Below are positions 104 through 34,726 of a stretch of DNA of 64,000 nucleotides, in pieces. This DNA comes from Zeimonas arvi (GTDB lineage Bacteria > Pseudomonadota > Gammaproteobacteria > Burkholderiales > Burkholderiaceae_E). Position 1 is the stretch's first letter, and the number at the start of each line of letters is the position of its first letter. The DNA is taken from the NCBI RefSeq assembly GCF_008039575.1, contig NZ_VDUY01000001.1, forward strand, positions 124,001 to 188,000. Direction: 5' to 3'. The position numbers were made by a program, and so were the translations under genes. The notes under the pieces were generated by a model. That model saw only the letters and a list, made by a program, of their open reading frames with translations, was not told the DNA's origin and did no database searches.

Positions 104-457
104 CCCCGGGGTCGGGCGAACGAAGCCAAGACAAGTTCAGCGGCGCGCCACGACCTTGCCGGCGCGGGAGGGCAGGCGGCGGTTTGCGCGGGCGTGTGCG
201 CTGGCGCGGGAGCGCAGCGAAGACCCGGCGCGCGCAGCGCGAGCGGAACGCTGTCTGAGGACCGCCGCAGGCGGGCCGAGTTGCGTTCCGCGACGGGGCT
301 GAGCGTCCGCGCGACCAAGCGTTTCCGCGAAGCGGACAGCGCGCCCGCCCGCGCAAACCGCCGCCTGCCCTCCCGCGCCCCGCGCCAACACGAGCGCGCC
401 GTCTATAATTGAGGGTTTAGTTCGCCCGAACCCGGGCTCGTTCGCCCGACCCCGGGC
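104..457. repeat. Nested inverted-repeat element upstream of argG (element A)
   Basis: Two nested inverted repeats are visible. The inner arms, 161-194 and 346-379, are a perfect 34-bp match in opposite orientation around a 151-nt loop. The outer arms, about 104-126 and 435-457, match over about 22 bp with one indel. The loop carries CGCTGTCTGAG and, about 20 nt later, CGAGTTGCG. The same two words flank the central hairpin in the elements near 15, 17 and 33 kb. It also has a distal hairpin TCCGC-gaa-GCGGA (around 323-335). I therefore treat it as a diverged member of that family. Its right inner arm ends about 25 bp before the argG -10 hexamer. Confidence 0.7.
404..409 (+). promoter_or_regulatory. 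Candidate -10 of the argG promoter
   Basis: A consensus TATAAT lies 80 bp before the argG start. Seventeen bp upstream is GC-rich DNA next to the right arm of element A, and no convincing -35 is visible. Transcription would start near 416 and include the 20-bp tandem repeat at 421-460 in the leader. Confidence 0.5.
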
Positions 458-14354: not shown

Positions 14355-14942
14355 GTGGCAGGCGGCACGCCGAGGCTGATCGTCTTCGCCGGCCACGCGG
14401 GCACCGGCAAGACCACGCTCGCCCGCATGGCCGTGCCGCGTCTGCACGCGATGACCGGCGAGAGCTTCTGCGTGCTCGACAAGGACACCGTCTACGGCGC
14501 ATTCAGCTCGAAGGTCATGGGCCTGCTGACCGGCGATCCCGACGACCGCGACAGCCCGACCTACCTCGAGCACCTGCGCGACCAGGAGTACTCGGGCCTG
14601 CTCGACATCGCCCGCGAGAATCTGGAGCTCGGGGTCAACGTGGTGCTGGTGGGGCCCTTCTCGCGCGAAGTGAAGAGCCGCCGGATGTTCGATGCCGCCG
14701 CGCTCGGCACGCCAGCCGGCAGCCCGATCCGCGTGGTCTGGGTGGCGCTCGAGGAGGCCGAGGCGAAGCGCAGGATCGTGGCCCGCGGCGACCACCGCGA
14801 CCGGTACAAGCTCGAGCACTGGGACGAATATCGGGTGCGGCGCTTCGATCCGGATCCGGCCGAGTACCCGGCGCTGATCCGTTACGACAACACGGTGCGC
14901 TCGGCGGAGCGCTTCGAGGCGCTGCTGGCGCGGCTGTGCTGA
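14355..14942 (+). CDS. P-loop AAA-family ATPase / kinase-like protein
   Basis: A 195-residue protein with Walker A GHAGTGKT at residues 13-20, the AAA_33/zeta-toxin-like kinase fold, and VVLVGPFS as the likely Walker B strand. The C-terminal part, VWVALEEAEAKRRIVARGDHRDRYK, resembles the lid region of small-molecule kinases. It starts at GTG 14355, and no ATG fits the conserved beginning. The substrate is unknown. It ends just before a 700-bp intergenic region that holds two foldback elements. It may be the last gene of the Rieske-EamA-rhodanese operon, from which it is separated by 13 bp. Confidence 0.82.
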   Translation: MAGGTPRLIVFAGHAGTGKTTLARMAVPRLHAMTGESFCVLDKDTVYGAFSSKVMGLLTGDPDDRDSPTYLEHLRDQEYSGLLDIARENLELGVNVVLVGPFSREVKSRRMFDAAALGTPAGSPIRVVWVALEEAEAKRRIVARGDHRDRYKLEHWDEYRVRRFDPDPAEYPALIRYDNTVRSAERFEALLARLC

Positions 14943-14989
14943 CGCTTCGCGGTCACTCCCTCGTCTTTTCGGGTATGCCCGACCCGGCC

Positions 14990-15182
14990 GGGGCATCGGC
15001 ATGAGCCGGGACCGGTGCTGCGCCCCTCGCCTGCGGCGAGGGGTTCCGGCGTCTACCTCGTCGCCGGCGGCTCGGGCGCAACTCGCGAGCCCTGCGGGCT
15101 CGCTCGGACAGCGCCCTCGCTGATCGCCGGCTCCTTCGGTAGCCCGCCGCTTGCACAAGGTCCCGGCTCATGCCGATGCCCC
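14990..15182. repeat. Foldback element E2 (conserved core, private arms)
   Basis: Perfect 24-bp inverted arms (14990-15013 and 15159-15182) enclose a 145-nt core. Read on the minus strand, the core contains GCAAGCGGCGGGCT, GCGATCAGCGAGGGC, GCTGTCCGAGCG, a hairpin AGCCC-gca-GGGCT, CGCGAGTTGCGCCCG and a distal hairpin CCCCTCGCC-gca-GGCGAGGGG. The same words recur in E3, E4 and E5, but the arm sequence is found only here. It lies in the gap between the convergent P-loop gene and GST gene. I see no open frame that it would support. Confidence 0.88.
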
Positions 15183-15408
15183 CGCCGGGCCTGGATGTTG
15201 CGATGTGCGCGAAGGTGTTCGCGCGACGCGACCGGCGCATCGCAAGGCCCGCGCTCCACGGCCCTCGCACTGACGCTCGCGTCGACGCAGGCTCGCGCAG
15301 CCACGCCGACGACCGCGATCGAGCCGCCAAGCGAGCCAGCTCCGCTTCCGCGTCAGCCAACGGCGGAGCGAAGCGAACGCCCCCGCTCGCGCAGGGCGAA
15401 GACCTCCA
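15183..15408. other. Spacer between paired foldback elements E2 and E3
   Basis: A 226-bp GC-rich non-coding stretch. Just outside the E2 right arm it has CCTGG (15190), GTGCGC (15205) and GCGCGAC (15221). The same three words in the same order and nearly the same spacing follow E5 (33471, 33487, 33504). A further inverted repeat TTGCGATG / CATCGCAA (about 15198-15244) encloses GCGCGAA / TTCGCGC. I find no gene. Confidence 0.6.
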
Positions 15409-15617
15409 GGGTCGGCGGTGCGGCGGCCGGATGCCGGACTTTGGGCAAGCCGCGGGCTGCCGTAGTAGCCGGCGATCAGCGAGGGCGCTGTCCGAGCGGG
15501 CCCTCCGGGCCCGCGAGTTGCGCCCGAGCCGCCGGCGACAAGGCAGACGCGGGAACCCCCCGCCGCAGGCGGGGGGCGCAGCCCTCGTCCGGCATCCGGC
15601 CGCCGCGCCGCCGACCC
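15409..15617. repeat. Foldback element E3 (conserved core, private arms)
   Basis: Inverted arms of 31 bp (15409-15439 and 15587-15617) have a single mismatch, which would be a G-T/G-U pair. They enclose a 147-nt core in the opposite orientation to E2. On the plus strand it reads GCAAGCCGCGGGCT, GCGATCAGCGAGGGC, GCTGTCCGAGCG, hairpin GGGCCC-tcc-GGGCCC, CGCGAGTTGCGCCCG and distal hairpin CCCCCCGCC-gca-GGCGGGGGG. The hairpin stems differ from E2 but remain paired. E2 and E3 are therefore a head-to-head pair. The right arm ends 34 bp from the GST stop codon. Confidence 0.88.
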
Positions 15618-15651
15618 GGGCGATACGAACCTGCCCCGAGCCGGGGAACGG

Positions 15652-16278
15652 TCAGCTGAGCGGAACCTCGAAGCCGCGCGCCACGCCAGGCCGCGCCATC
15701 ATCGCCTCGTACCAGCGCTTCACGTTCGGGAAGTCCGCCAGGTCGACCTTGTGGCGCTCATGGCGCCACACCCAGCCGACGATCGCGAAATCGGCGATCG
15801 AGAGTTCGTCGGCGAACCAGTCGCGGCCGCCGAGGCGACGGTCCATCACGCCGTAGAGCCGGCGGGTCTCCTTCATGTAGCGGTCGAGCCCGTAGCGCCG
15901 GTCTTCCTCGCTCTGCAAGCCCAGGAAATGATGGACCTGACCCGGCATCGGACCGAAGCCGCCCATCTGGAACATCAGCCACTCGTAGACCGGAATGCGG
16001 GCACCGAGGTCCCTGGGCAGGAACTTGCCGGTCTTCTCGGCCAGATAGAGCAGGATCGCGCCGGACTCGAACACGCTGACCGGCTTGCCGCCGGGGCCAT
16101 CGGGATCGACGATCGCCGGGATCTTGTTGTTCGGGCTGATCTTCAGGAACTCCGGCGCGAACTGCGCGCCCTTCGTGATGTCGATCGGGGTCACGTGGTA
16201 GGGAAGGCCCATCTCTTCCAGCGCCACGCTGATCTTGCGGCCGTTCGGGGTGTTCCAGGTGTAGAGCTCGATCGTCAT
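15652..16278 (-). CDS. Glutathione S-transferase family protein (YfcG/YghU-like)
   Basis: A 208-residue GST-fold protein with an N-terminal thioredoxin-like domain beginning MTIELYTWNTPNGRKISVAL and a helical C-terminal domain. ISPNNKIPAIVD, and FESGAILLYLAEKTGKFLP with the glutathione-binding ES pair, are hallmarks of the nu-class disulfide-bond oxidoreductases such as E. coli YfcG. It probably reduces disulfides with glutathione. It is not a maleylacetoacetate isomerase, so it does not complete the homogentisate pathway at 30 kb. I start it at ATG 16278, and the longer frame to 16455 lacks similarity. The gene runs toward foldback element E3. Confidence 0.92.
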   Translation of the reverse strand: MTIELYTWNTPNGRKISVALEEMGLPYHVTPIDITKGAQFAPEFLKISPNNKIPAIVDPDGPGGKPVSVFESGAILLYLAEKTGKFLPRDLGARIPVYEWLMFQMGGFGPMPGQVHHFLGLQSEEDRRYGLDRYMKETRRLYGVMDRRLGGRDWFADELSIADFAIVGWVWRHERHKVDLADFPNVKRWYEAMMARPGVARGFEVPLS

Positions 16279-16442
16279 GCGGGTCTCCGTGGGTTCTTTG
16301 GTCGAGTGGAGGAGCATCGGATGGGGATGCCTGATGTTACACTGTCGCATCTTGCTCACCGCGATGGACAGCGCTTCGGCGCGCCGGCAATCGGCCCGCC
16401 GTCCCGCGGCGCGCACCTGACCGCATCCCCGGGGTTTCCTTC

Positions 16443-17222
16443 GTGACTCTCGCAATGATCGTCGCCGCCACGCTGCTGGGCGGCGCCGCGAGCGTGTTCG
16501 CTGCCGCCGCGCTGTCGCTCACCGTCCTCGCCGGCCTGGTCCGGCAGCTGGTGAGTCTCTCCGCCGGCTTGCTGCTGGCCACCTCGATCCTCCACGTGAT
16601 CCCCGAAGCCTTCGAATCCGGCGCCGACCTGCACGCGCTGGCGTGGACGCTGCTGATCGGGGTGATCGCCTTCTTCCTGCTCGAGAAGCTCGAGGTGCTG
16701 CGCCACAGCCATCACCACGAGGGCGACGGGCATGCCCACCACGACGGCCACGACCGCGAGGAAGCCGGGCCCGGCGGCGCGATGATCCTGGTCGGCGACT
16801 CGATCCACAACTTCGCCGACGGCGTGCTGATCGCGGCGGCCTTCATGGTCGACCTCAAGCTGGGCTGGCTCACCACGCTGGCCATCGCGGCTCACGAGAT
16901 ACCGCAGGAGATCGGCGACTTCATCGTGCTTCTGAACGCCGGCTACACGCGCAAGCGCGCGCTGCTGTTCAACGTCCTGAGCGGGCTCGCCGCCGTGATC
17001 GGCGGCGTGGCCGGCTATTTCGTGCTGGCCGAGTCGGCCGCGCTGCTGCCCTACGTGCTGGTGCTGGCCGCGGCCAGCTTCATCTACGTGGCCCTGGCCG
17101 ACCTGGTGCCGGACCTGCACAGGCACTCGCGGCATCGCGGCGAATGGAAGGTGCAGTTCGCGCTGATGATGGTGGGCGTGGCGATCGTGGCGCTGCTCAC
17201 GACGCAGCTGCACGTGCACTGA
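16443..17222 (+). CDS. ZIP family metal transporter
   Basis: Inner-membrane divalent-metal transporter of 259 residues with about eight hydrophobic segments. The His-rich cytoplasmic loop is at residues 88-103 (HSHHHEGDGHAHH). The metal-site helices contain HNFADG (122-127) and AHEIPQEIGDF, both ZIP signatures. The start is GTG 16443, with ATG 16455 as an alternative. Metals are probably zinc or iron. It diverges from the GST gene and converges on polA across element E4. I see no Zur or Fur box in the 164-bp upstream region. Confidence 0.94.
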   Translation: MTLAMIVAATLLGGAASVFAAAALSLTVLAGLVRQLVSLSAGLLLATSILHVIPEAFESGADLHALAWTLLIGVIAFFLLEKLEVLRHSHHHEGDGHAHHDGHDREEAGPGGAMILVGDSIHNFADGVLIAAAFMVDLKLGWLTTLAIAAHEIPQEIGDFIVLLNAGYTRKRALLFNVLSGLAAVIGGVAGYFVLAESAALLPYVLVLAAASFIYVALADLVPDLHRHSRHRGEWKVQFALMMVGVAIVALLTTQLHVH

Positions 17223-17285: not shown

Positions 17286-17497
17286 GGGCGGCGAGCGGAA
17301 CGGTTCCGACGCCGGACCTCGTGGCAAGCCGCGGGCTGACGAAGGAACCGGCGATCAGGGAGGGCGCTGTCCGAGCGGGCCACTCGGGCCCGCGAGTTGC
17401 GCCCGACCCGCCGGTGACGAGGCAGACGCGGGAACCCCTCGCCGCAGGCGAGGGGCGCCGCCACTGTCCGGCGTCGGAGCCGTTCCACTCGCCGCCC
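17286..17497. repeat. Foldback element E4 (conserved core, private arms)
   Basis: Inverted arms of 32 bp (17286-17317 and 17466-17497) have two mismatches, both transitions. They enclose a 148-nt core in the same orientation as E3: GCAAGCCGCGGGCT, GCGATCAGGGAGGGC, GCTGTCCGAGCG, hairpin GGGCC-actc-GGGCC, CGCGAGTTGCGCCCG and CCCCTCGCC-gca-GGCGAGGGG. It nearly fills the 323-bp gap between the ends of the convergent ZIP and polA genes. There is no paired partner here. Confidence 0.88.
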
Positions 17498-33187: not shown

Positions 33188-33262
33188 CGCCGCTCGCGGC
33201 TCGGCCCGCGTTCGGACTTCGCGGCGGCGTGCTCTCGGCGGGCCGGGCGTCGCGGCGCTCGC

Positions 33263-33470
33263 CCGGCTGGCGGGGCTTGGCTTTTCCCGGACAGACGGCT
33301 TCGCCCCTCGCCTGCGGCGAGGGGTTCCGGCGCCTTCCTCGTCAGCGGCGGCTCGGGCGCAACTCGCGAGCCCTGCGGGCTCGCTCGGACAGCGCCCTCG
33401 CTGATCGCCGCTTCCTTCGGAAGCCCGCCGCTTGCCGAATGTCCGGGAAAAGCCAAGCCCCGCCAGCCGG
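33263..33470. repeat. Foldback element E5 (conserved core, private arms)
   Basis: Perfect 31-bp inverted arms (33263-33293 and 33440-33470) enclose a 146-nt core in the same orientation as E2. Over most of its length the core reads like E2: CCCCTCGCC-tgc-GGCGAGGGG hairpin, CGGGCGCAACTCGCG, AGCCC-tgc-GGGCT hairpin, CGCTCGGACAGCGCCCTCGC and GCCCGCCGCTTGC. The arms share nothing with the E2 arms except the inner GGAC/GTCC. It lies 75 bp after the fahA stop. Confidence 0.88.
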
Positions 33471-33635
33471 CCTGGGATGCGGTGACGTGCGCAGCCGTGA
33501 CGAGCGCGACGACACCGGGCGGGCCGAACACGGGCCGAGCCGCGAGCGCCGGCATCCCGCTGTCCTCACGCAGCCATGAAGAAACGGCGGCGAGCGAGGC
33601 GAGCGCCCTCGCGCTCACGCATGACTCGACATCCA
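33471..33635. other. Spacer between paired foldback elements E5 and B
   Basis: A 165-bp non-coding stretch. It begins CCTGGGATG and carries GTGCGC and GCGCGAC at the same relative positions as the E2-E3 spacer. Open frames crossing it (for example the upstream extension of the leuS frame) are compositional shadows. I see no gene. Confidence 0.55.
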
Positions 33636-33828
33636 GGTCCGGCGGAGGCTCGGCTTCGCGCGGGACAGTGTGCAAGCCGAGCGCCACGGAAAGAAATCTC
33701 GCGGGCCCCGCTCATCCGCGCGAAGCGCGCATGAGGCGGGTGCGAGATTTCGACGTGGGCGAGGGAAGCCCCGCCAACGGCGGGGCCGCAGCACCCTGTC
33801 CCGCGCGAAGCCGAGCCTCCGCCGGACC
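33636..33828. repeat. Foldback element B (diverged core, same architecture)
   Basis: Perfect 32-bp inverted arms (33636-33667 and 33797-33828) with the same GGGACA/TGTCCC inner boundary enclose a 129-nt loop. The loop starts GTGTGCAAGCCG, like E3 and E4, and ends with a distal hairpin CCCCGCC-aac-GGCGGGG. Between them the common CGCTGTCCGAG...GAGTTGCG segment is replaced by another nested stem, GAAATCTCGC / GCGAGATTTC, enclosing CCCGCTCAT / ATGAGGCGGG. Head-to-head with E5, in the gap between fahA and the IclR gene. Confidence 0.8.
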
Positions 33829-33877
33829 GGGCGTACGAAAAGAGCGAGAGCGCGCCGGCGATCAGCCGAGCGAGCGC

Positions 33878-34726
33878 TCAGGTGTCGAGCGTCTGGCTCA
33901 TCGCCTCGGCCGCCGACTGCATCTCCGGCAGCAGCTGCACGGCCTCGTCCATCGGCAGCCGCGACACCGGCGCGTGCACCGACACCGCGGCCACCACGCG
34001 GCCGTCGCCGTCGTGCACCGGGACCGCCATCGCGAAGATGCCGGGCAGGTACTCCTCGCACTCGGTCGAGTAACCGCGTTCGCGGATCAGCTCGAATTCC
34101 TCGAACAGACGCCCCGGCTCGGTCAGCGTGCGCGGGGTGTTGCGCACCAGGGGGAGCTGCCGCACCAGGCGTTCGCGGCTGCGCCGGGGCATGTGCGCCA
34201 TGAACAGCTTGCCACTGGCCGACGAGTGAATCGGCACGGTGGTTCCCGCGGTGATCGTGATCTTCAACGGCCAGGAAGTCTCGACCCGGTCCAGGCAGAG
34301 CACCGTGCTGCCGTTGGCGATCGTCAGGTTGCACGTCTCGCCGACCTGCTCGACCAGCTCTTCCAGGATCGCGCGGCGCGCCGAGCGCGCGGGCGAGGTC
34401 AGCAGCACTTCGCCCGCCAGCTGGTTCATGCGCGGACCGCAGTGATAGCGCTTGCTGCCTGGCTCGCGACCGACCAGCCCGGCGTGCTCGAGCGTGGAGA
34501 GGATCCTGAACACCGTCGGCTTGGGCAGGTCCACCGCCTTGCAGATCTCGGCGAGCTGCGGCGGGGCATGGCAGGCGGCGATCGCCTCGAGAACCCGCAT
34601 CGCCCTCAGGATGGCGGAGCCGGCCGGAACCGGTTCGCCGGGGCCCGCGCCGGGCCCGGAAGCGATCGATCCTGCCGGGGCCTCCTGCCCTTCGTCCGCC
34701 TGGTAGTCGCTGGTGAAATCGCTCAT
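33878..34726 (-). CDS. IclR family transcriptional regulator
   Basis: A 282-residue regulator with an N-terminal winged helix ([42 protein letters not shown]) and a C-terminal effector domain ending in [19 protein letters not shown] and [17 protein letters not shown] start at ATG 34726 (MSDFTSDY). The frame stays open antisense through leuS, but that part is not coding. The gene is convergent to hmgA-fahA and divergent from leuS. Homogentisate operons in pseudomonads are controlled by an IclR-type repressor (HmgR), so this protein is a candidate for that role (inference). A palindrome covers its own presumed promoter. Confidence 0.93.

Follow-up and report, generated by a model that had tools for sequence, protein, structure and literature searches.

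Fold-back elements with a conserved core and copy-specific arms at gene 3' ends in Burkholderiaceae genomes

Instability is the expected fate of a long perfect palindrome in a bacterium. Despite this expectation, the genomes analysed here carry tens of long palindromes each, at sites common to species. Template switching associated with quasipalindromes was reportedly described by Ripley in 1982, and by Lovett.

As outlined in PMC7202029, quasipalindrome template switching uses the nascent strand as template and perfects imperfect repeats, with arms that end up identical, and in this it resembles what we report; it is described as a type of mutation at scattered sites, however, whereas here it would be linked to one conserved, dispersed core and yield arms of up to 160 bp. 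The fold-back inverted duplications that form in yeast without Mre11 nuclease activity (PMC10622511) and in E. coli without SbcCD and RecA (PMC3315005) are, in the accounts given there, also like our elements as we interpret them: both involve a hairpin turn, copying of the flank by fill-in and suppression by a hairpin-cutting nuclease. Those are large chromosome duplications, whereas the arms here are short, local and stable. The actively maintained inverted repeats of Caenorhabditis (PMC1803023) likewise conserve structure far more than sequence, but they are gene-sized and eukaryotic, and no common core figures in that description. The coding palindromes of Nematomorpha mitochondria (PMC6649704), perfect inverted repeats of up to 284 bp, similarly overlap coding sequence but, as summarised there, with no dispersed core element. 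Closest in appearance are bacterial MITEs, REP/BIME, ERIC and Rickettsia palindromic elements (PMC10969869), which are dispersed palindromic intergenic repeats of 100-250 bp; according to that overview, MITEs conserve their terminal repeats, whereas in our elements conservation lies in the centre and not in the arms. The titles and abstracts retrieved in searches of open PMC papers describe no such element family, and a survey of perfect inverted repeats on a genome-wide scale (PMC13155455), which used spacers of up to 8 bp, would miss these elements.

Elements in the window and their conserved core

The window, i.e. the whole 64-kb stretch of DNA that was analysed, was scanned for inverted repeats whose arms span 24 bp or more, with mismatch of at most 8% and a loop of at most 300. 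Six near-perfect inverted repeats were found, all six being core-bearing elements, and the same scan of 21 control loci (113,226 bp) returned none. The sequence-only reading had proposed four elements (14990-15182, 15409-15617, 17286-17497 and 33263-33470), all of which this separate scan places where that reading had them; elements 5 (33633-33831) and 6 (161-379) are additional. The elements and the annotated neighbouring genes are:

161..379, (+): element 6, atypical core with a CTGTCTGAG...CGAGTTG hairpin; arms 34 bp, 0 mismatches (43 nt at 95%)
14355..14942, (+): gene for an AAA_33 kinase-like protein, convergent neighbour of element 1; the stop is at the 3' side of that element
14981..15191, (-): element 1, type A core (covariance model 151.6 bits; inverted-repeat scan); arms 14981-15013 and 15159-15191, 33 bp, 2 mismatches; core 15014-15158
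15192..15405: spacer of the divergent pair formed by elements 1 and 2
15406..15620, (+): element 2, type A core (covariance model 144.3 bits; inverted-repeat scan); arms 15406-15439 and 15587-15620, 34 bp, 2 mismatches; core 15440-15586
15652..16455, (-): glutathione S-transferase family gene, convergent neighbour of element 2
16443..17222, (+): ZIP zinc transporter family gene, neighbour of element 3
17286..17497, (+): element 3, type A core (covariance model 141.4 bits; inverted-repeat scan); arms 17286-17317 and 17466-17497, 32 bp, 2 mismatches; a lone copy with convergent genes on both sides
33261..33472, (-): element 4, type A core (covariance model 160.6 bits); arms 33 bp, 1 mismatch
33633..33831, (+): element 5, type B core, partner of element 4; arms 36 bp, 1 mismatch

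The core length first given for the four elements, 145-148 nt, is reproduced for three of them by local alignment; for 33263-33470 that alignment gives 134 nt because the arm alignment extended further inward, and the inverted-repeat scan gives 146. The inner GGAC/GTCC of the arms, also noted earlier, is present in these four elements but does not hold for the family, in which GGGCGC, GGTCC, GGGCT and others occur. Two covariance models were used, R1 built on 33 type A cores and R2 on 51 cores, mostly type B. The core of element 5 is a divergent subtype, scoring 80.1 bits with R1 (cmsearch) and 141 bits with R2, and in element 6 a core fragment (246-288) alone scores, with 31.4 bits. Element 6 lies upstream of an argG-like gene (start at about 489, by eye), without a convergent gene pair around it, and a TATAAT-like sequence is found downstream of it at about 404-409.

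The predicted folds are very stable. Folded as RNA, 15409-15617 has a z-score of -10.5, with none of 200 shuffles equally stable, and folded as DNA, 161-379 and 33636-33828 have z-scores of -12.1 and -12.3. In an alignment of 33 cores (A1; of the 38 first copies, five were left out, namely two that lie at contig edges, two that have a swapped module and one whose core carries a deletion), 46 consensus pairs are found, pairing holds in 97.4% of cells and 28 pairs have changed on both sides. The covariation score of 0.422 compares with 0.109 (sd 0.009) for shuffled alignments, none of 500 shuffles reaching as high, and 236 two-sided changes stand against one-sided states in 18 of 1511 cells, 16 of which fall in a single isolated pair. 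There are conserved unpaired positions as well. The internal loops of the core have not been perfected, and therefore something selects the core. We conclude that the core is a conserved structured nucleic acid of about 130-150 nt, with a stem closing a three-way junction, and a function as RNA may be compatible with these data.

The two subtypes can replace each other at one site. Where elements 4 and 5 lie, genome G003 (L041) has a type A core in its (+) copy and the window a type B core, and the arms of these two (+) copies are identical at 26 of 27 positions, the sole change being present in both arms. Two damaged copies were also seen: L038:2530-2691 (G000) has lost the inner part of the core and kept long arms, its G007 orthologue (L051) having a full core, and L110:1173-1307 (G001) is a decayed third core amid a divergent pair, its arms gone.

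Distribution and placement of the family

A blastn search with one core gave 13 copies in G000, 13 in G003 and 12 matches in G007. R1 matched 13 of the 18 genomes in the genus (Lautropia-like MAGs of the Burkholderiaceae), with 150 candidates scored per genome, which makes the copy counts lower bounds. Across the family, R2 matched 18 of 74 genomes and 4 of the 16 genera; on folding, the matches in G074, G075 and G061 have long arms and that in G020 a partial pair, and clear arms were not seen for the match in G079. An order-wide search found at least 3 matching genomes among 300, and, at 10 candidates scored per genome under strict filters, it is weak evidence of absence. The exact type B pattern occurs in 44 stretches of GTDB contigs, 43 of them in Burkholderiaceae, Burkholderiales, Lautropia or Limnobacter records. 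The remaining one belongs to a Pirellulales MAG (L155, JABWBD010000164.1) and is perhaps a misbinned contig.

Several known kinds of element were considered and rejected or set aside. The viral contigs, phages and plasmids searched contain no core match, which speaks against phage or plasmid cargo. Rfam gave 0 matches in the window and none above a gathering threshold, the best weak match being RF02917 (18.8 bits against 67.9, E 1.7); the sequence-only reading had likewise named no described family that it could match with confidence. A REP/RAYT system was discarded, since the Y1 transposase (PF01797) is present in 3 of the 18 genomes and absent from G000, G003 and G005, as were a retron, group II intron or other element driven by reverse transcriptase, PF00078 being found in 5 of 18 genomes and absent from G000, G003, G001, G008 and G013. 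Intrinsic terminators do not account for the elements either: between 14900 and 17600 no terminator-like site coincides with them, the two terminator-like matches lying inside genes or at 16278. The gene flanked by a pair does not appear to be cargo, as the proteins encoded between paired copies look ordinary (by eye) and those genes that were read are not transposases. A hammerhead-like CUGANGA was seen by eye in one copy and dropped, since the other copies are without it. The elements are not filed as a MITE, a REP or a known RNA, since defining features of these were looked for and not found.

The orientation of the elements is regular. Among 26 neighbour pairs within 1.5 kb, counted over 108 typed elements from the R1 and R2 searches in eight genomes, 24 are (-)(+) and two (-)(-), with no (+)(-) or (+)(+) pair. 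For 93 elements placed against heuristic open reading frames, the 3' side faces the 3' end of a gene in 73 cases and a 5' end in 14, with no reading frame in 6; the heuristic errs at times, having missed, for example, the frame ending at 33878. The median distance from core to stop is 69 nt. Both members of a pair at one locus obey the 3'-end rule, so that direction would be set by the gene rather than by the replication fork. That the elements keep to gene ends, at sites common to species, suggests either that they are of use in this position or that they are tolerated nowhere else. In the spacers of the two divergent pairs of the window (33473-33632 and 15192-15405), short stretches (GCGAGGCGAGCGCC, CGACATCCAGG) resemble G003 spacers.

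Arm turnover and the relA and phoH loci

Arm length was taken as the prefix with at most 6% mismatch, for 92 of 96 copies (L038:2530, L052:6411, L004:2 and L110:1173 were dropped). Arms are short in G000 (26-37 bp in 21 of 23) and G003 (24-35 bp in 20 of 25), and long in G005 (83-160 bp in 12 of 14) and G008 (68-142 bp in 5 of 5). Elsewhere we measured 148 bp in G006, 134 and 153 in G015, 13, 105 and 158 in G013, 20 and 84 in G011, 45 in G012, 11, 24 and 38 in G017 and 21 in G009. Most long-arm copies, with arms of up to 160 bp, have 0-4 mismatches. The 13 bp of G013 belong to its phoH copy, in which an 11-bp tandem duplication beside the core interrupts an otherwise long palindrome.

Complementarity in the short-arm group is 0.95-0.98 over the first 20 bp and has dropped to 0.50 by 31-40 bp (control 0.57), after which it recovers weakly to 0.67-0.69 at 51-80 bp; in the remaining genomes it is at least 0.87 out to 80 bp. 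In the clade of the window the arms end at about 28 bp, beside conserved motifs outside the arms, a CC[A/G]GG-like one bounding the 5' side and a CCGGGCGCA-like one the 3' side, which are found in 48 and 41 of 63 copies in this clade versus 9 and 9 of 33 elsewhere. The arms are otherwise private to each copy and differ in all the copies listed. Twelve G005 arms returned 24 matches in their genome, each matching only itself and its mirror among the 40 of 332 first-look candidates that were scored. This bears out the earlier observation that arms are unrelated between copies; arms common to many copies, which would have refuted it, did not turn up.

In the 79 of these 92 arm pairs with arms of at least 15, we counted 4007 Watson-Crick pairs, 29 G.T, 21 A.C and 60 other mismatches, and 70 gap positions. 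There is no clear preference for G.U, which selection for RNA pairing would be expected to favour on one strand. Among orthologous and paralogous arms, 13 of 14 pairs could be aligned, giving 324 columns: 261 are unchanged, 49 show a change in both arms and 14 a change in a single arm. Arms corrected to identity are a feature of quasipalindrome template-switch products, and the arms here look as if they are copied at the DNA level. That they turn over between close species suggests that copying recurs, perhaps in addition to copying at insertion.

The sequence-only reading had also offered selection for a transcript closed by any self-complementary stem, and these counts do not favour it. Stated more fully, a structured 3' UTR or antisense RNA under selection, accepting any long closing stem and acquiring its arms by compensatory substitution, would agree with the strong covariation and conserved unpaired positions of the core, with the very stable folds, and with the gene-end position in constant orientation to the neighbouring gene. 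One-sided wobble states, however, are almost absent from core and arms alike, and near-perfect arms of 70-160 bp differ from one species to another where the flanking proteins are 96-99% identical, a change that is hard to reach by paired substitutions. Nor would this explanation lead one to expect the copied coding end of phoH described below, and we consider it unlikely.

The relA locus can be compared in occupied and empty states. It holds an element pair in G000, G003, G001, G005 and G008, with 641-905 nt between the aligned gene ends, and is empty in G006, G015, G014, G004, G002 and G011, with 54-124 nt. The occupied genomes fall in two places on the RelA tree, which requires the pair to have been gained twice or lost several times. 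In the G005 and G008 spacers, the final bases of the relA-like gene with its stop recur in inverted orientation, identical over 32 and 28 nt; in the G000 and G003 spacers it is the end of the mog-like gene that recurs inverted, slightly decayed, with 3 and 1 differences in 30 nt (both by eye).

No long inverted repeat was found at the six empty sites. Another option of the earlier reading, that the core inserted into the loops of long palindromes already in place, would explain why the core always sits at the palindrome centre; with these six sites, at the one locus that could be compared, and the control loci all free of such palindromes, we regard it as very improbable. A non-autonomous, MITE-like transposon that duplicates the target flank in inverted form once, at insertion, followed by ordinary decay, fits with dispersed copies at orthologous sites that are empty or occupied, with the boundary motifs of one clade and with the inverted copies of gene ends. 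The copies nevertheless have no terminal repeats in common, only short boundary motifs recurring in one clade; no transposase was found among the families searched (Y1 PF01797 and RT PF00078, both absent from G000); and a single event with decay does not yield 49 two-arm against 14 one-arm changes. We judge such a transposon to be quite unlikely.

A further trace of copying from a gene is found at the phoH locus, where G005, G008 and G013 share the order phoH-like gene, (-) element, threonine dehydratase-like gene (families assigned on the G008 proteins), with arms that differ among all three species. In G008 the arm reaches 36 nt into both convergent genes, and the dehydratase ends in the last 11 residues of PhoH, SRLADYATDAL, plus the stop. 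This tail is on phoH in G005, G008 and G013, and is absent from the dehydratases of G013, G009, G001, G004, G000 and G003. The two genes have only TDAL-stop in common in G005, where the position of the G013 stop reads as a sense codon, and only bases after the stop in G013. The gene-side end was thus copied to the far side, to an extent that depends on the species. PhoH of G005 and G013 is 99% identical as protein, yet the gene-side arm is hardly alignable, which implies that the native flank of the gene accounts for the outer ends of the arms but not for the arms as a whole. Together with the inverted gene ends at relA and the concerted change of arms, the overwritten dehydratase C-terminus speaks for the option of one flank copied into the other, the remaining one that had been proposed from the sequence.

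An assembly artefact arising from fold-back chimeric reads would be in keeping with the predominance of MAGs among the sources and with long arms known from assemblies alone. The same covarying core nonetheless occurs at orthologous loci of independently assembled genomes, the arms change in concert between species and the palindromes are restricted to cores, all of which makes an artefact highly unlikely.

We therefore come back to copying at the DNA level. Judged from sequence comparison, the best explanation, and a fairly probable one, is that intrastrand template switching is seeded by a conserved fold-back core that sits where genes end. The core is dispersed at gene 3' ends, for the most part where two genes converge, and its 3' side faces the adjacent stop codon; the strand carrying it would fold back, the core serving as a ready-made hairpin turn. 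A polymerase that has passed the gene and the core would then switch to its own nascent strand and copy the gene-side flank onto the far side, and each copy would in this way gain arms of its own locus. We infer that gene side to far side is the general direction, as seen at the phoH and relA loci. Repeated quasipalindrome template switching would keep the arms identical as their sequence drifts fast, and a hairpin-cutting nuclease of the Mre11-Rad50 type would limit their length. Several points count against this explanation: the evidence is comparative and comes mostly from MAGs; plain template switching does not predict the limit of about 28 bp beside boundary motifs; the internal loops of the core are not perfected; the gene-side arm at phoH can hardly be aligned between G005 and G013; and the copied gene ends come from two loci, relA and phoH. 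If it is true, the elements are a natural, replicated record of template switching, whose arms give rates, tract lengths and copying direction in the wild, and they offer a route by which a gene could lose its own tail and take on that of its neighbour, copied in inverted form.

In the relA-side element of G008 (L112, about 1187-1300), a tandem duplication of about 40 bp is present in the 5' arm and single in the 3' arm, another sign of arm hypermutability.

Arm length and a candidate nuclease

Matches to SbcD (TIGR00619, all below the cut-off) were found in G000, G003, G007, G001, G004 and G010, and in none of the other 12 of the 18 genomes; for SbcC (TIGR00618), no match exceeded the cut-off and weak ones occur in all 18. 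The four genomes that combine an sbcD-like match with elements all have short arms, and long arms are found solely where no match was. This agrees with the formation of fold-back duplications in Mre11- or SbcCD-deficient cells. These four genomes form, with G016, one clade on the RelA tree and so provide one evolutionary contrast, and several genomes in the comparison are 65-90% complete. Short or decayed arms in genomes with no sbcD-like match are misfits to the rule: G009 (21 bp, one copy), G017 (11, 24 and 38 by the strict measure) and one G011 copy (20). We hypothesise from this genomic pattern that an Mre11-like nuclease may limit arm length.

It is also possible, and we put it forward tentatively, that the elements form a new class of dispersed DNA element, in which the folded core is the only heritable part; at gene 3' ends their self-made palindromes would copy the end of the host gene and rewrite the C-termini of neighbours, and arm length would be capped by a YhaO/YhaN-type Mre11-Rad50 nuclease where one is present. 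If so, genomes with and without an Mre11-like nuclease would make a question so far posed with engineered palindromes testable by comparison.

The sbcD-like gene of G000 encodes a protein of 424 aa (PF00149; TIGR00619 53.8 bits) and adjoins genes for an AAA_27 ATPase (1187 aa), with which it forms what we take to be a YhaO/YhaN-like pair, and for a WYL regulator. The WYL-domain regulator, the SbcD-like metallophosphatase and the AAA_27 ATPase lie in one cluster at L172:1722-7579 (contig C1), which we read as encoding a divergent pair of the Mre11-Rad50 type.
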